Below, piece by piece: positions 4,086 to 56,243 of a DNA stretch of 64,000 nucleotides. Source of the DNA: Planctomycetia bacterium (GTDB lineage Bacteria; Planctomycetota; Planctomycetia; Pirellulales; PNKZ01); the NCBI GenBank assembly GCA_021413845.1, contig JAIOPP010000118.1:1-64000 (forward strand). The letters run 5' to 3'. Under the pieces are notes generated by a model that was not told where the DNA came from, made no database searches, and saw only the letters and a program-made list of their open reading frames with translations. The translations under genes were made by a program, and so were the position numbers. The stretch's first letter is position 1. Each line of letters starts with the position of its first letter.

Positions 4086-6176
4086 ATGCCTCCCGTCGCA
4101 CCCGCTGTCGGCGCCCGTTCGTCGACTTCGTGGGGACTAGATCTCGTACTCCCGATCGGCCTGATCTCCGCAGTCTTGGTGATCTTGATGCCGCTGCCTG
4201 TCGTCCTGTTGGACGTCTTGCTGGCGCTCAACATCAGCGTGGCGGTGATCATGCTGTTGACGACGATCTACGTGCGCACGCCGCTGGAGTTCAGCGTCTT
4301 TCCTTCGCTTTTGCTCGCGACCACGCTCGGCCGGCTGGTGCTCAACGTCGCGACGACGCGACTCATTCTCACGCGCGGCGCAACGCACGGCCTCGATGCG
4401 GCCGGCGACGTGGTGCGCAGCTTCGGCGAATTCGTCGCCGGCGATAAAGCGGTCGTCGGCATCATCATCTTCGTCATCATCGTGTTAATTCAGTTCATCG
4501 TCATCACGAAAGGTGCCACGCGCATCAGCGAAGTGGCGGCCCGCTTCGCGTTAGACGGCATGCCCGGTCGGCAAATGGCGATCGACGCAGATCTGAACGC
4601 GGGCGTGATCGACGAAAAAGAAGCGCAGCGCCGACGTGCGGAAATCACGGCCCAATCGGACTTTTTCGGGGCGATGGACGGTGCTAGTAAGTTCGTGCGC
4701 GGCGATGCCATCGCAGGCATCGTCATCACCGTGGTGAACATCGTCGGCGGGTTGTTCATCGGCATGTTCGAGAGCGGCATGACGCTCGCCGAAGCGGCTC
4801 ACGTGTTCACGAAGCTTACGATCGGCGATGGGCTCGTCAGCCAAGTGCCGGCGTTCTTGATCTCGTTGGCGGCCGGCTTGCTGACGACGCGCTCGAGCAC
4901 CGACTCGAACCTGCCGCAACAATTCGTCGGCCAGTTGCTCGCGCGGCCGCAAGCGCTGTTCGTCACCGGCGGCTTTTTGGGAATGCTCGTATTTACGAGC
5001 CTCCCCAAAGTGCCGCTCTTGTCGATCGCCGTGGCCTGCATCGCGTTCGCGTTTACGACGATGCGCAAGACCAAGTCGGACAAGAAAGCGGCCGACGTCG
5101 CCCAGACCACGGCCGACAAGAAGCCGAAGGACGAGCGAATCGAAGACCTGCTCGTCGTCGATCCAATGGAAGTCGAGATCGGCGTCGGCCTCATTCGCTT
5201 GGCCGATCCGAAGCGCGGCGGCGACTTGCTCGATCGAGTGCAGCGCGTGCGCCAGAATATCGCGATGGAGCTCGGCATCGTCATGCCGAAGGTCCGCATT
5301 CGCGACAACATGCGACTCGATCAGCATGCGTATCGGATCAAGATCGCCGATGCCGCGGTGGCCGACGGCATGGTCTACGTGAACATGCTGCTGGCGATCG
5401 ATTCCGGAATGACCACGGGTCGCGTAGCGGGCATCGAAACGCGCGAGCCGGCCTTCGGCACGCGGGCCGTTTGGATCGAGCCGGCGCAGCGCGACCAAGC
5501 CGAAATGCAAGGCTATACGGTCGTCGAGCCGGTCAGCGTGCTGGCGACTCATCTCACCGAAACGGTTCGTCGGCATGGCGACGAAATCCTCACACGCGAT
5601 GCGACGAAGCATCTCGTCAACGAATTGAAGACCTCGTCGCCTGCCGTCGTCGACGAGCTCGTGCCGGGCATCATGAAGCTCAACGACGTGCAACAAGTGC
5701 TGCAGATGTTGTTGCGCGAGCAGGTGCCGATTCGCCAGCTGGCGAAGATCCTCGAAACTCTCGGCGATCATGCCGGCCGAATCAAAGATCCGATCTTGCT
5801 CACCGAGTTCGTTCGCCATAAGCTCGCCCGCACGATTTGCACGCGCTATCGCGATGCGGAGAAACGGCTCTACGTCATCACGCTTGATCCGGCCTTGGAA
5901 GACCGCATTCGTGCCGGTTTCGAGCATACGGAACGAGGACTGTTCATTCGCATGTCGCCGCAAGCGATCGAAGCGACGTGCAGACTGATGGCTCGCGAGG
6001 TGGAAAAGCTCTCGGCCCAGAATCGTCAGCCGATCGTGTTGGTAAGCCCGCAGATTCGAGCCGCCTTGAAGCAGATGACGCAACCTCATCTCCCGCTGTT
6101 AGCCGTACTCAGCTACAACGAGATCACGCGTGACACGACGATCGAGTCGGTCGCGATGGTTGCAGACGCAAAATAA
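4086..6176 (+). CDS. flhA: Flagellar biosynthesis protein FlhA
   Basis: A 696-residue protein of normal FlhA length. The N-terminal half has about eight membrane segments. The FHIPEP-family signature is seen as RISEVAARFALDGMPGRQM near residue 145. The C-terminal half is the cytoplasmic domain that docks chaperone-substrate complexes. FlhA forms the nonameric export gate of the flagellar type III apparatus in the inner membrane. Virulence homologues share the fold, but flhF, flhG and fliA downstream make the flagellar role clear. A heptad-repeat stretch, not a terminator, separates it from flhF. Confidence 0.97.
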   Translation: MPPVAPAVGARSSTSWGLDLVLPIGLISAVLVILMPLPVVLLDVLLALNISVAVIMLLTTIYVRTPLEFSVFPSLLLATTLGRLVLNVATTRLILTRGATHGLDAAGDVVRSFGEFVAGDKAVVGIIIFVIIVLIQFIVITKGATRISEVAARFALDGMPGRQMAIDADLNAGVIDEKEAQRRRAEITAQSDFFGAMDGASKFVRGDAIAGIVITVVNIVGGLFIGMFESGMTLAEAAHVFTKLTIGDGLVSQVPAFLISLAAGLLTTRSSTDSNLPQQFVGQLLARPQALFVTGGFLGMLVFTSLPKVPLLSIAVACIAFAFTTMRKTKSDKKAADVAQTTADKKPKDERIEDLLVVDPMEVEIGVGLIRLADPKRGGDLLDRVQRVRQNIAMELGIVMPKVRIRDNMRLDQHAYRIKIADAAVADGMVYVNMLLAIDSGMTTGRVAGIETREPAFGTRAVWIEPAQRDQAEMQGYTVVEPVSVLATHLTETVRRHGDEILTRDATKHLVNELKTSSPAVVDELVPGIMKLNDVQQVLQMLLREQVPIRQLAKILETLGDHAGRIKDPILLTEFVRHKLARTICTRYRDAEKRLYVITLDPALEDRIRAGFEHTERGLFIRMSPQAIEATCRLMAREVEKLSAQNRQPIVLVSPQIRAALKQMTQPHLPLLAVLSYNEITRDTTIESVAMVADAK

Positions 6177-6254
6177 AAGTCAGAAGTCAAAATGCAGAAG
6201 GCAGAAGTTATGAAGACCGGTTGAGCTCCGTAGTTTTGCGTTTTGCATTTTTCG
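6177..6254. repeat. Heptad-repeat element between flhA and flhF
   Basis: Right after the flhA stop comes a purine-rich run of 7-base units of the type AGAAGTC/AAAATGC/AGAAGGC. About 20 bases later a T-rich arm with repeated TTTTGC/TTTTGCAT partly complements it. The arms could fold in mRNA. The element belongs to the same family as those listed elsewhere in the window. Confidence 0.6.
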
Positions 6255-6281
6255 TTCACACTTTCCTTCGAGATGGAACTC

Positions 6282-7599: not shown

Positions 7600-7619
7600 C
7601 CCGACGTATCCACGTCGGG
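7600..7619 (+). terminator. Stem-loop after flhF
   Basis: A perfect 8-bp stem CCCGACGT/ACGTCGGG with a 4-base loop lies 11 bases after the flhF stop. The flanking GCGTCT (7589) and AGACGC (7630) could extend it. There is no clear U-tract, so it may be an attenuator or REP-type hairpin rather than a full terminator. Confidence 0.45.
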
Positions 7620-7642
7620 CTATTGAAGGAGACGCGTTGTAG

Positions 7643-7684
7643 CTTCCTTCTGGTTTCTAGTTTCTGCCTTCTCATTTTCCTCCT
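7643..7684. repeat. Pyrimidine heptad array just before flhG
   Basis: Six consecutive 7-base units of the form CTNNYTT (for example CTTCCTT, CTGGTTT, CTAGTTT) end three bases before the flhG start codon. They fill the place where a Shine-Dalgarno sequence would sit. This is the opposite strand of the purine heptad type. Confidence 0.6.
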
Positions 7685-7687
7685 CAC

Positions 7688-8554
7688 ATGCTCCCAGACC
7701 AAGCCAACGATCTGCGAAAACTGGTGCTCCGCGCCGGGCGTGGCGGCGGTCTGAACGATGCGCCGCCGCCGAAGATCGTCGTCGTGGCGGGAGGAAAAGG
7801 GGGCGTCGGAACGACGACCGTGGCGTTGAACTTGGCCGTGGCGTTAGCGCGCGAAGGGCGTCGCACCGTGCTCGTCGATGCCGATTTCGCCGGGCCCGAC
7901 GTCGCAGGCCTGTGCCGCATCGACGAACAATACGGCGCGGCCGACGTGCTGGCCGGACGGCGCACGGTCCATGAAGTTCTGCAACGGGGACCGGGAGGCA
8001 TTCAAGTGCTGCCGGCTTCGCGCGGGCTCACCGATCCCTCCGACTGCACGCCGCAAGCGCAAGAACGGCTCATCGCACAACTCGAAGGGCTCGGGCCCCA
8101 TGCCGACTACGTGCTCATCGACGCCGGCTCGGGGAGCGGGCGGGTGATGCGGCGCTTCTGGGAAGCCGGCGATGCGGTGCTGCTCGTCACGCATCCCGAT
8201 ACCGTTGCGGTGATGGACGCCTATGCCGCCGTGAAACTCGTTTGCCAAGACAATCCGCTGAAGGCGCAAATCCTTTCGCTCGCGAACTGCGCAGCCGACG
8301 ACGCTGCGGCTGCCGAAGTGCATGCGCGGCTCGATCGTGCTTGCCGCCGGTTCTTAGGCTTGAAAGTCACCGCTGCCGGCCAGTTGCCGTTCGACCCTTG
8401 CGTGCCGCGCGCCGGCGCAGAGCAACATCCGTTCTTACTCGAAGTGCCCGACGGTCTCGCGTCGGCCGGCATGGATCGCCTAGCGATCGAAGTGCCGCGG
8501 TTGGTTGAAGCCGAGTCGCCGCTCCATACCCACTTCCGTCGCCGCGCCGAATAA
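7688..8554 (+). CDS. flhG: MinD/ParA-type ATPase FlhG (YlxH) with altered P-loop
   Basis: A 288-residue MinD-family protein. Its deviant Walker A segment reads GGKGGVGTTT at residues 35-44. The signature lysine (K37) is kept, but the P-loop lysine is threonine (T42), as also happens in CpaE/TadZ-like proteins. LIDAGSGSG is the switch region. FlhG pairs with FlhF to control flagellar number. The N terminus starting LPDQANDLR fits an FlhF-activating region. No purine-rich ribosome site precedes the ATG, so translation may depend on the upstream gene or on start-codon context. Confidence 0.88.
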   Translation: MLPDQANDLRKLVLRAGRGGGLNDAPPPKIVVVAGGKGGVGTTTVALNLAVALAREGRRTVLVDADFAGPDVAGLCRIDEQYGAADVLAGRRTVHEVLQRGPGGIQVLPASRGLTDPSDCTPQAQERLIAQLEGLGPHADYVLIDAGSGSGRVMRRFWEAGDAVLLVTHPDTVAVMDAYAAVKLVCQDNPLKAQILSLANCAADDAAAAEVHARLDRACRRFLGLKVTAAGQLPFDPCVPRAGAEQHPFLLEVPDGLASAGMDRLAIEVPRLVEAESPLHTHFRRRAE

Positions 8555-8876
8555 CCGTTCGTCGCCGCGCTCGCGAAGCCACGTCGCCTGGTTCACATCT
8601 CGATTCCTTCCGATTCCGAAACACGCTCGGCGATTTCGCCGACTTCGCGCTCGTTCGTCGACTGGTTTACGAACGCACGAAGCACACGAAAATCGATTTT
8701 CAAAGCATTCTTCGTTTTCCGTTCATCCTTTGGTTCTCCGATGTCGATAACAGCGGTTACCGTCGCTAGACCTACTCCCGGTTCGGCCGGCAAACTTTGC
8801 GGATTGCGAAGTTTGAGCATGGCAAACTCGGAATTTGCGACGGTGGCTCGGGCTCGTTCGTTCGGAGTCGTCTGCG
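8555..8876. other. Gap between flhG and the small membrane gene
   Basis: About 320 bases with no convincing gene. It contains a heptad-like stretch near 8671-8724 (CACGAAG-type units facing CTTCGTT) and an inverted pair CAAACTT/AAGTTTG near 8792-8816. Short ORFs here lack family features. Confidence 0.4.
8671..8724. repeat. CACGAA-type heptad element
   Basis: ACGAAGC and ACACGAA units are followed after a short spacer by CTTCGTTTTCCGTTC-like sequence, giving weak opposing arms. Similar ACCACGA units occur at 32868-32911, which links it to the window-wide heptad family. Confidence 0.4.
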
Positions 8877-18810: not shown

Positions 18811-19878
18811 ATGCCCCGCCTCGTCCATTTGCGTTCGCTGTGGTTCGCCGTATTTTCGACGATCGCTTTCCTTGCCGACGGCCGGGCGCAAGGCGCCGAC
18901 CAGCCGCGCACGCTCGATATCTATTGGGTCGACGTCGAAGGAGGAGCCGCCACGCTGATCGTCACGCCGGCCGGCGAATCGATCTTGATCGACGCCGGCA
19001 ATCCCGGCCGCCGCGATGCCGATCGGATCTTTCATGTCGCCGTCGATGTGGCGAAGTTGAAGAAGATCGACCACCTTATCACCACGCACTTCCACGTCGA
19101 CCATTTCGGCGGCGCAGCGCAACTGGCTTCGGTGTTGCCGATCGGCGAAGTTCACGACAACGGCCAATTCGAAGGGCTGCGCGACAAGCCCTCGCCGGAG
19201 TATCTTGCGTTTAAGGCCGATAAGCGCTCGGTCGTGTCGCCCGGCGACGTCTACACGCTGAAGCCGCTCGGCGAAGGGGCGACATCGCTCAAGCTGCAGT
19301 GTCTCGGAGCTCGGCAGAAGTTCATCGCCGTCGGCGATACGAAAACCGGCGGAAAGTCGGAGCCCAACGACTGCTGTGCCGCGAACCAAGTGAAGCCGGT
19401 CGACAATTCCGACAACGCCAACAGTGTGGTGACGTTATTGCAGTTCGGCGATTTCGATTTCCTCAACACGGGCGATCTCACTTGGAATCGAGAGTTCGAT
19501 CTGGTCTGCCCGATCAATCGCGTGGGGGTCGTCGACGTGTTTCAAGTGAGCCATCACGGGCTCGACGTGAGCAACAACCCGGTGTTGATCAAGTCGATTT
19601 CGCCGCGCGTGGCAATCGTCAACAACGGCACCACGAAAGGGTGCGGGCCGCTGATGTTCGCGGCGCTCAAAGAGACGCCTTCGATCGAGGCAATCTACCA
19701 AGTGCATAAGAACCTGCGACCCGACGGCACGACGAACAACGCTCCCGATGAATTCATTGCGAACAAAGAAGCGGAGTGCAAAGGAGAGCACTTGAAGCTC
19801 TCGGTCGCGCCAGACGGAAAGTCGTACACCGTGAGCGTAGCCTCGACCGGGCACTCGAAGACGTACGCGAGTAAATAA
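18811..19878 (+). CDS. Secreted metallo-beta-lactamase-fold hydrolase
   Basis: A 355-residue MBL-fold protein. The start at 18811 has GAGGA upstream and gives a signal peptide (LWFAVFSTIAFLADGRAQG). The zinc motif THFHVDHFGG is complete. NTGDLTW and VSHHGLDVSNN supply the later aspartate and histidine. The arrangement resembles the ComEC-type/competence-like subgroup. It is probably exported. The substrate is unknown. Confidence 0.85.
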   Translation: MPRLVHLRSLWFAVFSTIAFLADGRAQGADQPRTLDIYWVDVEGGAATLIVTPAGESILIDAGNPGRRDADRIFHVAVDVAKLKKIDHLITTHFHVDHFGGAAQLASVLPIGEVHDNGQFEGLRDKPSPEYLAFKADKRSVVSPGDVYTLKPLGEGATSLKLQCLGARQKFIAVGDTKTGGKSEPNDCCAANQVKPVDNSDNANSVVTLLQFGDFDFLNTGDLTWNREFDLVCPINRVGVVDVFQVSHHGLDVSNNPVLIKSISPRVAIVNNGTTKGCGPLMFAALKETPSIEAIYQVHKNLRPDGTTNNAPDEFIANKEAECKGEHLKLSVAPDGKSYTVSVASTGHSKTYASK

Positions 19879-19882
19879 GAGA

Positions 19883-19975
19883 AGGGGTCGGGGGTGAGAG
19901 GTCGGTGGTCAGGACGGATGGCTCAAGGCCGCTTCCTTTCCGACCCCTGATCCCCGACCCCCGACCCCTGTTCCC
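19883..19975. repeat. G-rich/C-rich opposing heptad arrays
   Basis: Heptads of the GGGGTCG type (19883-19912) face C-rich CGACCCC-type units (19938-19975). A perfect 13-bp inverted pair (AGGGGTCGGGGGT at 19883 and its complement at 19957) gives a strong stem. It lies between convergent genes, so it could end both transcripts. Confidence 0.75.
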
Positions 19976-22401: not shown

Positions 22402-22450
22402 AGGGGTCGGGGGTCAGGGGTCGGGGGTCAGTGAGCAGAGTTCAGTTGAG
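22402..22450. repeat. Seven in-phase G-rich heptads
   Basis: Seven consecutive 7-base units run without a slip, alternating AGGGGTC and GGGGGTC and then drifting to AGTGAGC, AGAGTTC and AGTTGAG. The array ends 2 bases from the GT4 stop and lies between two co-directional glycan genes. There is no opposing arm. Confidence 0.75.
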
Positions 22451-26498: not shown

Positions 26499-26544
26499 CG
26501 CCGCCACGATGGAAGAACACCGAAGCGCAAAGCGGCTTCTCATC

Positions 26545-26572
26545 TGACCTCCGACCCCTGACCCCCGACCCC
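26545..26572. repeat. Four C-rich heptads before the second GT4 gene
   Basis: Four in-phase units of the TGACCTC/CGACCCC/TGACCCC type end 12 bases before the glycosyltransferase start codon. They are the complementary-strand version of the G-rich heptads. Confidence 0.7.
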
Positions 26573-26584
26573 TCCGAGCCAGCC

Positions 26585-27769
26585 ATGTTCCATCGTCGTC
26601 GCCGCTTGCTTCCGCTTTCCGAGCGTGGTCCGCTCAAGGTGCTGTTCGTCATCACGTCGATGCCGGTCGGCGGGGCCGAGACGTTGCTTGTGAATTTGGT
26701 GCGGCGCATGGATCGGAGCCGGTTTCTGCCGGAGCTCTGTTGCTTGAAGGAATTCGGCCCGCTCGGCGAGGTGCTCGCGCAAGAGATTCCCGCCGTAGAG
26801 AAACTGATTCGTCATAAGTACGACTATCAGGTCGTTGGGCGGTTGTCGAAGCTGATGGTCGAGCGGAAGATCGACGCGATTGTGACGGTCGGCACCGGGG
26901 GAGACAAAATGTTCTGGGGCCGCTTGGCTGCTTGGCGCGCCGGGGTTCCCGTCGTGTTGTCGGCCTTGCATTCGACGGGCTTGCCCGACCACGTCGAGTT
27001 GCCGAACCGCCTGCTCGAACCGATTACCGACGGTTTCATCGGCTGCGCCGTGCCTCATGGGGAGTATCTGGCGCAGCACGAAGGTTGCCCGAAGAAGAAG
27101 GTGTTCGTGATCCCCAACGGGGTCGACGTCGATCGGTTCCGGCCGTTGGAGCCGAGCGCCGAACTTCGGGCCGAGCTCGGTCTTGCGGCCGGCGCACCGA
27201 CCGCGGCGATCGTCGCGGCCCTGCGGCCCGAGAAGAACCACGAATTGTTCCTCCGCGCCGCGGCATTCGTCCATGCACGCATTCCGAAAGCACAATTCCT
27301 GGTGATCGGCGATGGGGCCGCGCGGCCGACGCTCGAACGGATGGCGAGCGATTTCGGCATCGGTTCGGCAGTCCGATTCCTCGGCACGCGCCGCGACATC
27401 CCGGAACTCCTCGCACACACGAACCTGCTGGTTCTCAGCTCGCATATGGAAGCGAATCCGGTGTCGATCATGGAAGGCCTAGCGTGCGGCAAGCCGGTCG
27501 TGGCGACTCGCGTCGGCTCGATTCCCGAAACGGTTCACGAAGGGGTCAGCGGGTATCTCGTCGAGCCGGGAAACGTCGAAGAAATGGGCTCGCGGATCGA
27601 GCAGTTATTTCGGGATCCCGAGCTTTGCCGCCGTCTGGGAGAAGCCGGGCGAAAGCATATCCAAGCGAATTGGTCGCTGGATCAAATGGTGGGTGGTTAC
27701 GAGAGACTTATCCAGTCTATCTATCTTGGCAAAACAGCTCGCACAGCACTGAAAATGTGCAACGCGTAA
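26585..27769 (+). CDS. GT4-family glycosyltransferase
   Basis: A 394-residue GT-B protein. VLFVITSMPVGGAETLLVNL at the N terminus is the glycine-rich acceptor loop. ALRPEKNHELFLRAA and the donor-binding SSHMEANPVSIMEGLACG region follow. The N-terminal basic segment may associate with the membrane. The start at 26585 excludes a spurious 96-residue upstream extension. It is likely co-transcribed with the deacetylase and works on the same surface glycan. Confidence 0.92.
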   Translation: MFHRRRRLLPLSERGPLKVLFVITSMPVGGAETLLVNLVRRMDRSRFLPELCCLKEFGPLGEVLAQEIPAVEKLIRHKYDYQVVGRLSKLMVERKIDAIVTVGTGGDKMFWGRLAAWRAGVPVVLSALHSTGLPDHVELPNRLLEPITDGFIGCAVPHGEYLAQHEGCPKKKVFVIPNGVDVDRFRPLEPSAELRAELGLAAGAPTAAIVAALRPEKNHELFLRAAAFVHARIPKAQFLVIGDGAARPTLERMASDFGIGSAVRFLGTRRDIPELLAHTNLLVLSSHMEANPVSIMEGLACGKPVVATRVGSIPETVHEGVSGYLVEPGNVEEMGSRIEQLFRDPELCRRLGEAGRKHIQANWSLDQMVGGYERLIQSIYLGKTARTALKMCNA

Positions 27770-31415: not shown

Positions 31416-31976
31416 TTAATCGTCGTGCAGCTTCCGTAGCCGGCCCGAGGTGCGCAAGATCCACTGCACGCGCTCGAACTCGTTGAGCCAGTCTTGAACG
31501 ACCTCGGCTTGCTCCGATTCGCCGGGGAGCACGATTCCCGTCGGGCAGGATTCGCCCGAAAGCTTCGCGACCGCCTTGCGATACGCCGACAACGTCCGGT
31601 CGCCGTACATGCCGACTTGAAAATTGTCTTCGCTCACGAAGAGCAACACCGGCACCCGAGCGCCGCCGCAGACGCTCAATTTCTCGCCGAGGTCCGGGTT
31701 GTCGTCTCGATCGAAGTATTTGATGTTGATCGTCGACGTCGCTTGCGCGAAGTGATCAAAGATCGGGCACTGATTCACGCAGTCGCCGCACCATGCACCG
31801 GCGAAACAAAACACCTTCATCTCGCGCGTGAACGATCCGAGCAGCGCGCGTTGCGCGGGCGTGAGCTTGATCGCCGCATGCATCTTGGCCCAGCGATTCT
31901 GATGCTCAGCCGTGCCGTACTTCGTGAGGAAGGCGTCGTAGGAAAGACCGGATTCGAATTTGGTGGCGAGGTTCAT
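31416..31976 (-). CDS. Thioredoxin-family protein
   Basis: A 186-residue cytoplasmic thioredoxin-fold protein. KVFCFAGAWCGDCVNQCP carries the WCGDC active site, and GARVPVLLFVSED has the cis-proline. The helical N terminus (KFESGLSYDAFLTKYG) and C-terminal extension are longer than in plain thioredoxin. Reduction of protein disulfides or peroxide defence is probable. Heptad repeats lie immediately upstream of it, in the gap to the AlkA gene. Confidence 0.85.
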   Translation of the reverse strand: MNLATKFESGLSYDAFLTKYGTAEHQNRWAKMHAAIKLTPAQRALLGSFTREMKVFCFAGAWCGDCVNQCPIFDHFAQATSTINIKYFDRDDNPDLGEKLSVCGGARVPVLLFVSEDNFQVGMYGDRTLSAYRKAVAKLSGESCPTGIVLPGESEQAEVVQDWLNEFERVQWILRTSGRLRKLHDD

Positions 31977-31985
31977 GGGAGAAAG

Positions 31986-32143
31986 AGGGGTCAGAGGTCA
32001 GGGGTCGGGGGTCAGAGGGGGAAACGCAGAAGTCAGAATGCAAAATGCAAAAGTTCGGAGGTGGCAAGTGTTCGGCGGTTGGTCACGATCACGTCGGCCT
32101 CGGGTCGTCTCCAACTGACCACCGACCACTGATCACCGACCAC
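31986..32143. repeat. Long heptad array with both sequence styles
   Basis: From 31986 twelve 7-base units run in phase. The first are AGGGGTC-like; they pass through AGAGGGG and GAAACGC into AGAAGTC, AGAATGC and AAAATGC. A C-rich arm (32108-32143, ACCACCG/ACCACTG-like units) complements the G-rich start. It joins the G-rich and A-rich variants into one repeat family. It lies between alkA and the thioredoxin gene. Confidence 0.8.
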
Positions 32144-32796
32144 TATTTCTTCTTCCCCTTCTGCTTTTCTTCCTTCATCATTCCCGCCGCGCGCCACATG
32201 TACCAGCTGGCGACTGAGCGGAAGGGGCGCCATTTCTCTCCGTGCTCGGTGAGGGCGGCGATCGTCGGGGGGGCTTCGAGGGCGTAAGTGTACATGAACC
32301 CTTGCCGTACGCCGAGGTCGGCCACCGGCAGGACGTCGGGCCGCCCGAGCGAGAACATCAATAACATCTCGGCCGACCAGACGCCGATGCCGCGCACCTG
32401 CGTCAGCCGTTCGACGATCTCTTCGTCGCTCATCGCGCGCAGCTTACGCGGGGTCGGCACCGTGCCGTCGAGCGTCTTCGCGGCAAGGTCGCGCACGGCC
32501 AGCACTTTATTTCCCGACAGGCCGGCCGCGCGGAGCGACTCCGTCGAGAGAAGCAGCAGCGCTTCCGGATCAGGCTTCTTCGTGGTGACGAACAGCGCAT
32601 GGACCCGGCCGAGAATCGTCGCGGCGGCCTTGCCCGAAAGCTGCTGACTGACGATGGCCCGCAACAGCACCTCGAACGGGTCGATCGTCTTTGGCGGCTT
32701 CAGGGTAAACGGCCCGGCCGCGCGAATGATCGCCCCCAGATCTCGATCTCGCTTCCGCAAGTGGGCGATCGCTTCGTCGGGATCGTAGGTGAGCAT
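32143..32796 (-). CDS. DNA-3-methyladenine glycosylase II (HhH-GPD)
   Basis: A 217-residue AlkA-like glycosylase without the N-terminal AlkA domain. The helix-hairpin-helix is LTQVRGIGVWSAEMLL, and the catalytic aspartate lies in VLPVADLGVRQG. LLRAIVSQQLSGKAA is the usual entry helix. It excises alkylated purines in base-excision repair. The Lys-rich C terminus (MKEEKQKGKKK) partly derives from the adjacent repeat array. The gene is near no other repair gene. Confidence 0.9.
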   Translation of the reverse strand: MLTYDPDEAIAHLRKRDRDLGAIIRAAGPFTLKPPKTIDPFEVLLRAIVSQQLSGKAAATILGRVHALFVTTKKPDPEALLLLSTESLRAAGLSGNKVLAVRDLAAKTLDGTVPTPRKLRAMSDEEIVERLTQVRGIGVWSAEMLLMFSLGRPDVLPVADLGVRQGFMYTYALEAPPTIAALTEHGEKWRPFRSVASWYMWRAAGMMKEEKQKGKKK

Positions 32797-32806
32797 GGGA
32801 GCGGCA

Positions 32807-32912
32807 AGGGGTCAGGGGTCGGAGGTCAGGAGAGAAAGCAGAAAGCAGAAGGAAGAGGGTAATGAGGACCACGAACATTAAAACCACGAACGAGGAACCA
32901 CGAACCGTGAAA
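32807..32912. repeat. Heptad array upstream of alkA
   Basis: AGGGGTC and GGAGGTC units (from 32807) shift to AAAGCAG units (to about 32855), then ACCACGA/ACGAGGA units (32868-32912) with a one-base slip. It covers the probable alkA promoter region between two divergent genes. Confidence 0.7.
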
Positions 32913-34734: not shown

Positions 34735-34977
34735 CGGCAAATTCCTTCGGTTCGGGCAGTGACACGTGTATGTCGCTTGGCAAAGCTATGCAGACGGTGA
34801 ATCATAGGAAGAAATTGGCCGGAGTCCAACCAAGGATGCGGCGGAAATCCCCTAAATTCGCAAAGAGTTCGACTTTGCGAAAGCCGTTCCGAGCCTACTC
34901 GCTGCCTCCTCAAAAGAGCGGACTCAAAGCTTAGAATCTAACCAAAGCCGACTACAACCATTTATAGCCAAAGTCCA

Positions 34978-35017
34978 CTATAATTTGCTATAATTCACTA
35001 TAAGTTGTTATAAATTG
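34978..35017 (+). promoter_or_regulatory. Four 10-bp A/T-rich direct repeats before the AAA+ gene
   Basis: CTATAATTTG, CTATAATTCA, CTATAAGTTG and TTATAAATTG run head to tail and end four bases before the ATG at 35022. Two contain a perfect TATAAT. No Shine-Dalgarno sequence is present. The 10-bp phase puts every unit on one DNA face. It may be an operator, an iteron-type origin or a promoter giving a nearly leaderless mRNA. Confidence 0.75.
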
Positions 35018-35021
35018 CATC

Positions 35022-36206
35022 ATGGATCCCATCAAAAATCCGTTTTCACCAGGTGCCGGAGCGCCGCCGCCAGAGTTGGTGGGGCGCGATCCTGTTTTGG
35101 CTGAAGCACGTATCTTGCTTGGCCGAGTCAGGCAGAAACGCCCTGAAAAAAGCATGCTACTGACGGGCCTGCGCGGGGTCGGTAAGACTGTTTTATTGAA
35201 TGAGATCGAACGGTTAGCCCAAGCCGATGGCTATCGCACGATCGCCGTCGAAGCCCACGAAGAGAAGCCTCTGGGGTCGTTGATCGCACCCTACCTGAGG
35301 AAACTGCTATACGAACTCGATCGAATGGCCGGAGTCGGCGATAAAGTAAAACGCGGGCTCGCAGTCCTACGAAGTTTCGTCGGTGCCTTGAAGGTCACGG
35401 TCGACGACATGACCTATGGGCTGGATATCGATCCGGAGAAAGGAACCGCCGACAGCGGCGATCTGGAAATCGATCTTCCGAGTGTTTTCGTAGCGATCGG
35501 TGAAGCCGCGGAGAACCGTAGGACAGCCGTCGCGATTTTGATCGACGAAATTCAATATTTTAGTAGCAAGGAACTGGCCGCCATCATCATGGCGATGCAC
35601 AAGATCCAGCAACAACAACTCCCGGTCGTTCTGCTCGGCGCTGGGTTGCCGATCTTGCCGGGACTTGCGGGCGATGCCAAGTCATACGCGGAGCGTCTGT
35701 TCTCCTTTCCCGACATCGGTGCGCTGTCGGAGAACGATTCTGCAAGAGCATTGCGCGAACCGGCACAGGCTGCCGGGGTCGTATTCGAGCAGACGGCACT
35801 CGATGAAGTTTATCGACTCACGAAAGGCTATCCGTACTTCGTGCAGGAATGGGGCTACCAATCATGGAACTCGGCTCCAGCCAGTCCCATCACGGTCGAT
35901 GTCGTTCGTAACGCTACGGCAGCTGTGATTCCTCGACTAGATAAAAACTTTTTTCGGGTACGGTTCGACCGACTCACGCCTGGAGAAAAGAATTATCTAC
36001 GCGCAATGGCGGAACTCGGCTCCGGGCCGCAGCGAACGGCAGACATTGCCGAGAAGTTGAACGTAAAAGTGACAAGTCTGGGGCCGGTGCGAGCCAAGCT
36101 CATTCAAAAAGGAATGGTCTATAGCCCTGCTCATGGTGATATGGCATTTACGGTTCCGCTCTTCGATGAATTCATGATTCGAGCAATTCCCGATTTTCAG
36201 CGATAA
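35022..36206 (+). CDS. Orphan AAA+ ATPase, Orc1/Cdc6-like
   Basis: A 394-residue ATPase. Walker A is GLRGVGKT (residues 49-56) and Walker B is ILIDEIQYF (172-180). A helical lid contains DSARALREPAQAAGV. A C-terminal winged helix (LTPGEKNYLRAMAEL to YSPAHGDMAFTVP) ends the protein. The layout is that of Orc1/Cdc6-like and STAND-related archaeal-type ATPases, which are common as lone genes in bacteria. DNA binding at its own upstream repeats is plausible. Base use is more A/T-rich than in neighbours, suggesting acquisition. The function is unknown. Confidence 0.8.
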   Translation: MDPIKNPFSPGAGAPPPELVGRDPVLAEARILLGRVRQKRPEKSMLLTGLRGVGKTVLLNEIERLAQADGYRTIAVEAHEEKPLGSLIAPYLRKLLYELDRMAGVGDKVKRGLAVLRSFVGALKVTVDDMTYGLDIDPEKGTADSGDLEIDLPSVFVAIGEAAENRRTAVAILIDEIQYFSSKELAAIIMAMHKIQQQQLPVVLLGAGLPILPGLAGDAKSYAERLFSFPDIGALSENDSARALREPAQAAGVVFEQTALDEVYRLTKGYPYFVQEWGYQSWNSAPASPITVDVVRNATAAVIPRLDKNFFRVRFDRLTPGEKNYLRAMAELGSGPQRTADIAEKLNVKVTSLGPVRAKLIQKGMVYSPAHGDMAFTVPLFDEFMIRAIPDFQR

Positions 36207-36238: not shown

Positions 36239-36739
36239 ATGATGGCGACAAACAAATCAGCGAACCGGACGAAAACCGAGAAAAAAGCGAAAGCCCCGAA
36301 GCTTGTCGTAAGCGGTGAGCCGCGCGTCGCGACGGTGCGCCCCATCGCCGAAAGCGAAGCGTCGGGCCGGGTCGCCGAAATCTTCGCCGACATCAAGCGA
36401 ACGAAGAACATCAACTTCGTGCCGAACATGTGGCGCGTGCTGGCCGTGAATCCGCTGGAGTTGGAATTGGTTTGGACGAGTTTGAAGCGGCTCATGCATC
36501 CGGAAGCCGAAGGACGCAAGGGGCTGCTCGATCCGCAGACGCGCGAGATTATCGCGCTGGCGGTGTCGGCCACGAACGGCTGCGCTTATTGCGTCAACTC
36601 GCACACGACTGCGCTTCGCAAACTCGGCCTCTCGACCGAAGCGCTCGGCGAAGTGCTGGCGATCACCGGCCTGTTCAACATGACGAACTCACTGGCCGAA
36701 GGCTTCCAAATCGAGCCGGACGTGCTGCCGCCGCTGTGA
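36239..36739 (+). CDS. AhpD-like carboxymuconolactone decarboxylase-family protein
   Basis: A 166-residue AhpD-fold protein. GCAYCVNSHTTALRKLG holds the CxxC and proton-relay histidine used in peroxidase-related activity. The Lys-rich N terminus is probably flexible. These proteins act as alkylhydroperoxidase-related thiol enzymes. An ATG at 36239 has CAGGGA upstream. A heptad repeat begins at its last base. Confidence 0.88.
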   Translation: MMATNKSANRTKTEKKAKAPKLVVSGEPRVATVRPIAESEASGRVAEIFADIKRTKNINFVPNMWRVLAVNPLELELVWTSLKRLMHPEAEGRKGLLDPQTREIIALAVSATNGCAYCVNSHTTALRKLGLSTEALGEVLAITGLFNMTNSLAEGFQIEPDVLPPL

Positions 36740-36856
36740 AAGTCAGAAGTCGGAATGCAGAAGGCAAAAGTACGGAGGCGTGTTGTGCGGCGACGATCGG
36801 TTTGATCGTGAGCCTATTTCCGTCGTTTTGCATTTTGCATTTCTACTTCTGACTTT
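36739..36856. repeat. Heptad element forming opposed arms
   Basis: Six heptads of the AAAGTCA/GAAGTCG/GAATGCA/GAAGGCA kind start at the AhpD stop. The complementary arm (36826-36856, TGCATTT, TGACTTT units) ends inside the last codons of the CAP gene. The arms share AAAGTCAGAAGT and its complement exactly, so a hairpin of 12 bp or more is possible. It probably terminates both convergent genes. Confidence 0.78.
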
Positions 36857-37490
36857 CCGCAAAGGGCGCACGCCCTTCATAGTTTCCCGGCGGGTCGTAG
36901 TTGCAAACGATCACGGTCCAGCCTTTGAACTCGCCGACCTGCACGACCGCTTTCCCCGCGCCGATCTTCGTCGTCTTGCTCCAAACCAGTTGCGTGTAAT
37001 GGCCGGCCTTGAATTCGGCGAAGTCGGTGGGAATCGGCATTCCGGCGACGTAGTCTTTCTTTTCGGCATACCAACCTTGTGCGCCGTCGGCCGGGCCGTA
37101 GTCGGGCGAATTGCCGATCGCTAAATTTTCCCCATAGATCTGCTTCGCCGCTTGGGGCTCAAGCGGCGCGGTTTCCGACGTGGCGACGTCGTACGGCCGA
37201 TGTTCGAACTTACCGGTCGCTGCGATGTGGTCGGCCCATTGCTGCGCGAACGCCGCGACCTCGGGCGACCACCGGACCGGCCCGACGCCGACCTCTTTCC
37301 GCGCGGCATCGTGAAACGCAACGAGCGTTTGCGACTCGGCAGCCGAGAGCCGCGAGGGGGGAAGCACGACAGGCGCGCCCGTTGCGGCCGGGGCGACAGG
37401 TTCTTGCGCCACGGCCGACGTCGCCACGATGAGCATCGCCGCGAGAAATGCATCGGCAAGGAACAGCGCGAGCGTAGGAATAGAACGCAT
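36843..37490 (-). CDS. Exported CAP-domain (SCP/PR-1) protein
   Basis: A 215-residue protein. The ATG at 37490 gives a signal peptide ending near AVAQ. The CAP domain shows FHDAARKEVGVGPVRW, FAQQWADHIAATGKFEH, YGENLA, GHYTQLVWSKT and VIVCNYDPPGN, with both histidines of the family (HR in FEHR, HYTQ). Function is unclear in bacteria; some members are proteases or sterol-binding. Its C-terminal ESQK and stop codon are part of the repeat arm downstream. Confidence 0.9.
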   Translation of the reverse strand: MRSIPTLALFLADAFLAAMLIVATSAVAQEPVAPAATGAPVVLPPSRLSAAESQTLVAFHDAARKEVGVGPVRWSPEVAAFAQQWADHIAATGKFEHRPYDVATSETAPLEPQAAKQIYGENLAIGNSPDYGPADGAQGWYAEKKDYVAGMPIPTDFAEFKAGHYTQLVWSKTTKIGAGKAVVQVGEFKGWTVIVCNYDPPGNYEGRAPFAESQK

Positions 37491-39152
<1,662 letters not shown>

Positions 39153-53733: not shown

Positions 53734-54666
53734 ATGGCTAAGGCTCGCGCACTCGATAAACGTCGCAAAGCGATCCGCAACATCCGCAAGATCACGCGGA
53801 CGATGGAGCTGATCGCGACTGCGCGTTTCAAGAAGGCGATGGATCGTGCTTCGGCCGCCTCGGCTTATACGAAGCGTATCTCCTCGCTCGTCGCCGACTT
53901 GGCTAATGCCGGCCTCGCCGTCAGCCATCCGTTGCTTGAGGCGCGGCCGGAAGTGAAGATCGCGAAGCTGTTAGTGCTGACCGGCAACCGCGGTCTCTGC
54001 GGCGGGTACAACTCCAACATCATTCGGGCCGCGGCGGCCCGCGTCGTCGAGCTTCAGGCAGCCGTCCCGAGCGTGTCCGTCGAGATCTCCGGCAAGCGCG
54101 GCATCTCGGGCTTCAAGACGCGTAACATCACGGCCGATGTGACGTTTACGCACTTCGAAGACAAGCCTCGGTTCGATGAAGTCGAAGTCCTCGCGCAGCG
54201 TTATCTCAACGAATACCTCACCGGCAAGCTCGATCGCCTCGACGTCGCTTACACGCGCTTCGAGACGATGTCGCGACAATACGTCACCGTCGAAACGCTG
54301 CTGCCGCTCGGTGCCTTGGAAGGCCTCGACGGGGCCGCGAAGCCAGGTGCGGCGAAGACGGAAGCCGATGCGGCCGCGGCGAAAAAAGAAGTGAAAGCCG
54401 AAGTGCAGTACGAGTTCTTGCCGTCGGCCCAGAGCATCCTCGAAGAGGTCGTGCCGACGAGCTTCAAAGTGAAGCTTTTCAAGTTCTTTCTCGATGCGGC
54501 CGTGAGCGAGCAGATCGCACGAATGACGGCCATGAAAGCCGCGACCGACAATGCCAACAAGATCATCAAGAAACTCGCGATGACCTACAACCGCGCTCGG
54601 CAAAGCCAGATTACGGGCGAGATCATGGAAGTGCTCGGCGGCGTCGAAGCACTCAAAAATAAATAA
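53734..54666 (+). CDS. atpG: ATP synthase subunit gamma
   Basis: A 310-residue subunit gamma. The N-terminal helix (RKAIRNIRKITRTMELIATARF) and C-terminal MTYNRARQSQITGEIMEVLGG form the central shaft. An Ala/Lys-rich insert of about 25 residues (GAAKPGAAKTEADAAAAKKE) makes it slightly longer than usual. A heptad-repeat array begins at its stop. Confidence 0.97.
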   Translation: MAKARALDKRRKAIRNIRKITRTMELIATARFKKAMDRASAASAYTKRISSLVADLANAGLAVSHPLLEARPEVKIAKLLVLTGNRGLCGGYNSNIIRAAAARVVELQAAVPSVSVEISGKRGISGFKTRNITADVTFTHFEDKPRFDEVEVLAQRYLNEYLTGKLDRLDVAYTRFETMSRQYVTVETLLPLGALEGLDGAAKPGAAKTEADAAAAKKEVKAEVQYEFLPSAQSILEEVVPTSFKVKLFKFFLDAAVSEQIARMTAMKAATDNANKIIKKLAMTYNRARQSQITGEIMEVLGGVEALKNK

Positions 54667-54735
54667 TGACTAATGACTAAATCCTAATGACTGAAGTAAC
54701 ACTTTTTAGACATTAGTCATTAGACCTTAGTCATT
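54665..54735. repeat. Opposed AATGACT heptads inside the atp operon
   Basis: Four in-phase units of the AATGACT type (54665-54692) overlap the atpG stop codon. Fifteen bases later four inverted units (54708-54735, AGTCATT type) face them. The arms can pair over more than 20 positions. It lies between atpG and atpD, where the operon is normally continuous. Confidence 0.8.
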
Positions 54736-54746
54736 CGAAACCCTGA

Positions 54747-56243
<1,497 letters not shown>

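Follow-up and report, generated by a model that had tools for sequence, protein, structure and literature searches.

Heptad cassettes adjoining gene edges in a planctomycete genome: candidate copied foldback spacers of intergenic gaps

The window analyzed here, i.e. the whole stretch of 64,000 nucleotides, includes an intergenic gap located between two minus-strand genes (31416-31976 and 32143-32796), in which a first-pass annotation had noticed runs of 7-base units. This gap, hereafter the flagged gap, and the divergent gap that follows the second gene contain the following features:

31977..32142, no strand: flagged gap, flanked on both sides by minus-strand genes; the entire gap is a foldback spacer, considered below through its RNA fold and the gaps of relatives
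31986..32015, plus strand: G-type cassette of four units, AGGGGTC AGAGGTC AGGGGTC GGGGGTC, whose purine strand points away from the start edge of 31416-31976 into the gap
32021..32052, plus strand: inner A-type cassette GAAACGC AGAAGTC AGAATGC AAAATGC, continuing the 7-base phase of the G-type one
32114..32144, minus strand: facing four-unit T-type cassette AGTGGTC GGTGATC AGTGGTC GGTGGTC, then AGTTG
32807..32830, plus strand: G-type cassette adjoining the start codon of 32143-32796, in a divergent gap
32833..32850, plus strand: A-type units AGAAAGC, adjacent to the 32807 cassette and out of phase with it

The T-type cassette starts within the TAG stop codon of 32143-32796. Transcribed from the minus strand, the flagged gap folds with -60.9 kcal/mol (z -4.58); the fold begins at the TAG of one gene and ends 12 nt short of the following ATG. 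The change from G-rich to A-rich units in constant 7-base phase, already annotated at 31986, is real: AGGGGTC lies at 31986 and AGAAGTC at 32028, i.e. at +42. However, this continuity had been taken as proof of one family, and by inspection two other composites of G and A types (L013:8355 and 32807/32833 in the window) are out of phase. Therefore, phase alone does not prove a single lineage of units.

Other arrays are dispersed over the window:

6177..6207, plus strand: A-type cassette, directly 3′ of the stop of the FHIPEP-family (FlhA-like) gene 4086-6176
6226..6256, minus strand: facing A-type arm, spelled CTCCGTAGTTTTGCGTTTTGCATTTTT
7643..7676, minus strand: AGAAACC-type arm near the start edge of 7688-8554 (14/21 lag-7 matches)
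19883..19912, plus strand: degenerate G-type cassette, 3′ of the stop of 18811-19878
19939..19971, minus strand: facing G-type cassette in the same convergent gap
22402..22431, plus strand: G-type cassette, adjoining a start codon if the upstream ATG 22394 is used
26544..26573, minus strand: G-type cassette before the start of 26585-27769
36739..36769, plus strand: A-type cassette, 3′ of the stop of 36239-36739
36819..36858, minus strand: facing A-type cassette before 36843-37490, overlapping its 3′ end
37570..37597, minus strand: A-type units AAATGCAAAACGCAAAACCC
54660..54692, plus strand: TAATGAC-type cassette covering the atpG stop codon
54706..54735, minus strand: facing TAATGAC-type cassette in the atpG-atpD gap (other heptads in relatives; RNA fold z -5.5)

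TRF and a lag-7 scan retrieved arrays at 6177, 19940, 22402, 26544, 31986, 32037, 32117, 32807, 32833, 54664 and 54706 of the window. Eleven sites of period 7 had been annotated, and ten of them have best scores of 14 to 18 lag-7 matches per 21 bases (6177, 16; 7643, 14; 19883, 14; 22402, 18; 26545, 17; 31986, 18; 32807, 16; 36739, 15; 37573, 15; 54665, 16), while the site at 8671 reaches only 10, which is background. The mean over the eleven positions is 15.4/21 at lag 7 compared to 8.0-9.5 at lags 5, 6, 8-11 and 13; random window positions have a lag-7 mean of 7.6 and a 99th percentile of 14. No Rfam 15 family was found in the window at gathering score.

One protein of this genome includes PSCyt1, PSCyt2 and PSD1 domains, which indicate a host belonging to Planctomycetota. 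In 1.2 Mb sampled out of the same 7.08-Mb genome, with a threshold of 16/21 lag-7 matches, we detected 74 period-7 arrays compared to seven in a third-order Markov control and to 0-9 at the control lags 5, 8, 10, 11 and 13. According to a simple codon-score gene caller, 71 of 75 arrays are intergenic, although coding sequences make up 85% of the sequence. The genome-wide excess and the enrichment in gaps that the first-pass annotation had proposed to look for are thus both present, and similar arrays were also found in relatives. When 586 gaps were pooled, the excess at lags 7, 14 and 21 was restricted to the 60 bp adjoining gene edges, the gap centres and coding sequences showing no period-7 excess. 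Loci L001-L020 were chosen around AGGGGTCAGGGGTC matches and are the array-enriched part of the sample; the unselected loci L021-L060 carry about 20 intergenic arrays in about 0.77 Mb, which extrapolates to a load of the order of 180 or more arrays per genome.

The arrays had been described as one degenerate family. This holds for the existence of period-7 intergenic arrays throughout the genome but not for their unity, since at least five word classes were recognized: AGGGGTC, AGTGGTC, AAAATGC (with AGAAGTC), TAATGAC/GAATGAC and AGAAACC. The arms of a given gap mostly belong to a single class, and each class forms a cassette of four units and roughly 30 nt, not a drifting microsatellite. All share the same layout, the common plan of the printed gaps being gene, purine-rich heptads, pyrimidine-rich heptads, gene. 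Among arrays located at most 20 bp from an edge, inward purine strands outnumber outward ones by 25:2 at starts and by 26:2 at stops (binomial p about 2e-11 when summed), and some of the exceptions are start-codon miscalls, such as 22402 in the window, where the use of ATG 22394 puts the array by the start. Since inward polarity is equal at start and stop edges, it is dictated by the gap edge, independently of transcription. A general purine skew of gaps was rejected as its cause: the corresponding values for array-free gaps are 0.49-0.50 at stop edges and only slightly skewed, 0.51-0.58, at starts. The distance between array and edge is often 0-14 nt, and two-armed gaps often have few bases outside the arms. 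Furthermore, CC precedes 69% of the start codons adjoining arrays (18% elsewhere), and the leader of these starts is pyrimidine-rich (0.78 compared to 0.47). The first-pass annotation had recorded neither this polarity at gap edges, nor the quantum of four units, nor the change of words between orthologous gaps that is described below.

Runs of G/T-type words in gaps comprise two units in 14 cases, three in nine, four in 40, five or six in none, and seven and eight in one case each. With all words pooled, 52 of the 75 arrays comprise four units, the commonest length being 30 bp. The order of the units is not random either (position-by-word statistic of 116, shuffled maximum of 89); AGGGGTC AGGGGTC GGAGGTC AGGGGTC, for example, is recurrent. 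The four-unit peak and the non-random order suggest that the arms are copies of cassettes rather than independent products of slippage. In addition, facing arms are of a single class in 22 of 25 gaps compared to 10.1 expected (G and T types merged, classes assigned by eye). Neutral heptad microsatellites produced by replication slippage in gaps, involving neither copying nor function, would explain the heptad period, the degenerate units and the location in insertion-tolerant gaps, as well as the species-specific words and the longer perfect arrays of 8-12 units seen in other families. However, slippage predicts neither the quantum (a peak at four and a hole at five to six units instead of a gradual fall-off), nor identical ordered four-unit sequences at many loci, nor a fixed inward polarity at both edges, nor complementary arms of one class. 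Slippage alone therefore fails, and this already disfavoured explanation is unlikely.

The four units could also correspond to the four G-tracts needed by G-quadruplexes acting on expression, a hypothesis discussed for other heptads (PMC4692102). The preference for four units and the placement are those of GGGAATC repeats, and the AGGGGTC class is G-rich. However, four GGG runs are found in only nine of the 48 four-unit G/T cassettes (39 of 48 are devoid of them), and AGTGGTC, AAAATGC, TAATGAC and AGAAACC cassettes lack four GGG runs while displaying the same architecture. As most cassettes are without four GGG runs, G-quadruplexes cannot be the common cause, and such a role is highly improbable. 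That several unrelated words adopt one four-unit inward layout argues that the layout matters and the word does not.

The annotated pairing of arrays with complementary arms is real, both in the printed gaps and in the folds. Single-armed gaps (n = 49) are more numerous than two-armed ones (n = 19), so that a hairpin is not always present. The mixing of G and T types across one gap is close to the chance expectation, and arms of the same class are no closer within a gap (Hamming distances 3, 3, 3 and 5) than between gaps (median 4). Therefore, pairing is not under tight selection. Two other origins were rejected: formation of one arm as an inverted local copy of its partner, since arms of the same gap are no closer than others, and mobility of a gene as a unit between two arms, since three genes are flanked on both sides compared to 2.1 expected.

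The comparison with orthologous gaps relies on a handful of readable cases; the relatives are 72-80% identical in DNA. The flagged gap is 166 bp long here but only 23, 33 and 34 bp in the congeners G003, G001 and G002, whereas in G006 it is 86 bp and carries its own independent AGGGTTC..GAACCCT pair. The converse was also observed, an AGGGGTC array being located in a G003 gap whose orthologue is 41 bp long here. The divergent gap holding the 32807 cassette measures 238 bp here compared to 76-175 bp in relatives. In the atpG-atpD gap, we found a TAATGAC pair here (fold z -5.5), a GAGTTAT pair in G003 (-6.3) and, by inspection, a GAACGAG/GCGATGA pair in G002 (-2.4); G005 has one GAATGAC arm, G001 none and G007 an unrelated palindrome. 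Similarly, L020:2083-2172 harbors an AAAATGC pair here (90 bp), while its counterparts in G003 and G001, of 99 and 96 bp, have pairs of CCGTAGT type; the three pairs fold with z of -4.3, -4.2 and -4.3; the G002 gap (97 bp) is devoid of heptads and folds with z -1.35, and the two genes overlap in G007. In the gap next to it, the arm of G003 and G001 retains the AGnnGTC register with other letters. Spacers have thus been gained, and words have been replaced within an existing slot while the hairpin was kept. Among compared gaps that carry an array here, those of relatives also have heptads in nine of 26 cases (base rate about 12%, p 0.002), a count that is only suggestive as it was made by eye with a looser threshold than the base rate. 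The atpG-atpD junction (window 53734-56243), with several different intergenic solutions across relatives, would be a good reporter locus.

Selection of these structures as intrinsic, possibly bidirectional, transcription terminators or transcript insulators, with heptads as raw material, would fit the stable stop-to-start stem, the conservation of position with free sequence, and the depletion of arrays in divergent gaps (4/143 compared to 48/515 for the others, p 0.008). However, convergent gaps are not significantly enriched over co-directional ones (9/87 and 39/428, p 0.69), no requirement for a U-tract was seen, and arrays are present where termination would be harmful, namely inside tight operons such as atpG-atpD and in the flagged gap, which is only 23-34 bp in three relatives. 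Such a function as the cause of the cassettes is very unlikely.

REPs are palindromes linked to RAYT genes. The elements described here resemble REPs and BIMEs as intergenic units of about 30-40 bp, often in facing pairs and with structured RNA; they differ from them by consisting of tandem heptads and by not being linked to Y1_Tnp genes. Non-autonomous mobile elements, either REP/BIME-like or MITE-like, with heptads as terminal repeats and mobilized by a RAYT or another transposase, would explain the inverted ends of fixed polarity, the dispersed ordered copies, the frequent size of two-armed gaps (about 90-103 bp) and the recurrent inner motif near AGTTG/CGGAGG. However, no array was found within 1.5 kb of the 30 Y1_Tnp (RAYT/IS200) loci of this genome and its relatives, so that mobilization by RAYTs fails on linkage. 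As regards MITEs, inverted ends are present; among the paired gaps listed, the centres have little in common beyond the arm ends. Single arms retain their polarity, and one layout is used by several unrelated words. At 72-80% DNA identity to the relatives, insertion junctions are too diverged to reveal an empty site bearing a target duplication. Altogether, mobile elements of this type are quite unlikely.

In our opinion, copied foldback spacers lining intergenic gaps best explain the architecture, the polarity, the four-unit quantum, the unit order, the gain in the flagged gap and the retention of a hairpin with a new word; we give this explanation a probability of about 0.5. The building block would be a cassette of four heptads (about 30 nt), copied whole into gaps, adjoining gene edges with its purine-rich strand directed into the gap. 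Two facing cassettes would form a hairpin extending from one stop codon to just before the next start. Dispersal would involve templated insertion or conversion, with cassettes at other sites of the genome as the source, and not slippage in place. The spacer may persist because intergenic gaps tolerate a foldback insertion, or because it is useful as a putative REP-like transcript boundary. New words would then capture existing slots by replacement of the whole hairpin, as in the P6b stem of the Nostoc trnL intron (PMC4476775).

Alternatively, heptads could be written, instead of copied in bulk, by an unrecognized repair or insertion activity: each free 3′ end of a broken gap would receive about four purine-rich heptads, with genomic cassettes as template, before the ends are joined. 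If true, this would account for the inward polarity from both edges regardless of transcription, for facing arms that are of a single class without being nearly identical, for layers of different words and for repeated rewriting of one slot, much as at fused telomeres. Ku was found in G002, G003 and G010, but without any match in this array-rich genome or in G001, which also carries arrays. Ku-dependent end joining was therefore rejected, and Ku would not be required for such writing. We regard this alternative as very doubtful.

Among known systems, the STRR of filamentous cyanobacteria are short tandem intergenic heptads with several words. The likeness to cyanobacterial heptads that had been annotated is one of kind, since heptads are common to both while the words and the phylum differ, the host here being planctomycete-like. 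Gene-edge heptads are known in several phyla without an agreed function, G-quadruplexes being the leading idea. Rehm et al. 2015 (PMC4692102) described intergenic GGGAATC repeats in Xanthomonas and GGGGA(C/T)T repeats in Nostoc with a preference for four units, and discussed G-quadruplexes. The repeats are antisense near starts and sense near stops, are few between divergent genes and, in two species, mostly adjoin the same pairs of genes; Xanthomonas has 70-75 convergent pairs. Nostoc conforms only partly as regards placement, preference for four units and convergent pairs (PMC4692102). The planctomycete cassettes share with these repeats the intergenic location, the four units, the inward polarity and the convergent pairs. 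However, they use AGGGGTC, AGTGGTC, AAAATGC, TAATGAC and AGAAACC instead of GGGAATC or GGGGA(C/T)T, in another phylum, Planctomycetota. Several unrelated words coexist side by side, most of them without G-tracts, the order of units is common to different loci and the word changes between congeners at the same gap.

Wholesale replacement of heptad classes has repeatedly occurred in the P6b stem of the Nostoc trnL (tRNA-Leu UAA) intron (Kaasalainen et al. 2015, PMC4476775). The replacement of the class of a 7-nt-repeat hairpin at atpG-atpD and L020:2083-2172 resembles it as a mode of evolution; unlike this single intron stem, the gaps considered here are intergenic and genome-wide, with cassettes against gene edges. 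According to MacGregor 2015 (PMC4679880), sets of two to six TAACTGA heptads are located at gene edges in Beggiatoaceae, cyanobacteria and Bacteroidetes with a patchy distribution, and the shorter gaps of relatives are devoid of repeats; a translational role was proposed. Mostly one orientation relative to start codons was described, and no rule of facing pairs in the sections consulted. Both systems consist of patchy edge heptads with shorter array-free gaps in relatives, but TAACTGA lies on the sense strand upstream of starts, whereas the words here are others and both gene edges are used equally. Our literature searches found no report of heptad repeats in planctomycetes. This work adds many words sharing one layout, independence from G-tracts, an explicit gap-edge polarity and word replacement at orthologous intergenic gaps.

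Among the 147 genomes searched for the order, 28 contain two exact AGGGGTC units in tandem, and AGTGGTC(A/G)GTGGTC was found in 41 of 294 genomes of the phylum. This spread is patchy: some distant families have numerous copies, whereas many close relatives have none. Inward polarity is 32:8 in four further families of the order (20 regions, selected for AGGGGTC matches), where arrays reach 8-12 units, so that a quantum of four does not hold everywhere. In other families, GACCCCT forms perfect arrays of 9-12 units at L186:3960-4052, L187:4019-4123 and L200:3873-3997, and one long GACCCCT array grades stepwise through GACCTCT and GCCCTCT. Among ten short contigs from other phyla, one clear heptad pair was detected, (CTTACTC)n...(GAGTAAG)n at L082:1717-1822 in Akkermansiaceae (Verrucomicrobia). 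It is pyrimidine-inward, so that inward purine polarity is not universal. The reversed control word CTGGGGACTGGGGA of the order search is the Nostoc word GGGGACT; it is abundant in G028 (n = 33) and G066 (n = 19), suggesting that this word is in use in these two genomes.

Word-swapped hairpins at orthologous gaps would mean either that the structure is selected or that an insertion or repair process rewrites the same sites. Either answer would explain the origin of much bacterial intergenic sequence and its failure to align across species.

Other repeats were noticed during this work. With up to two mismatches, the dispersed 17-mer CGCTTGCGRTTTCGCGG is present at 28 places of the 1.2 Mb; most of these are intergenic, and some lie within heptad spacers (e.g. 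window 1819, 10075, 43209 and 56734; L002:9374; L016:4807; L049:19609; L052:15521). A tandem 10-mer, CTATAATTTG, is repeated four times at 34976-35018 of the window; it is TATAAT-rich and located upstream of 35154-36206. The dispersed palindromic unit CCCCGGATATGCATCCGGGGCTATTGAACGGAG and its variants, sometimes in facing pairs, were found at 7600-7637 of the window, L001:3636-3671, L005:8347-8496 and L013:14980-15889. Lastly, a 46-bp palindrome related to CCCTTCTCCCGGCGGGAGAAGG (L013:9877-9922) has many copies with 93-100% identity in this genome and its relatives, and a similar palindrome is located in the atpG-atpD gap of G007.
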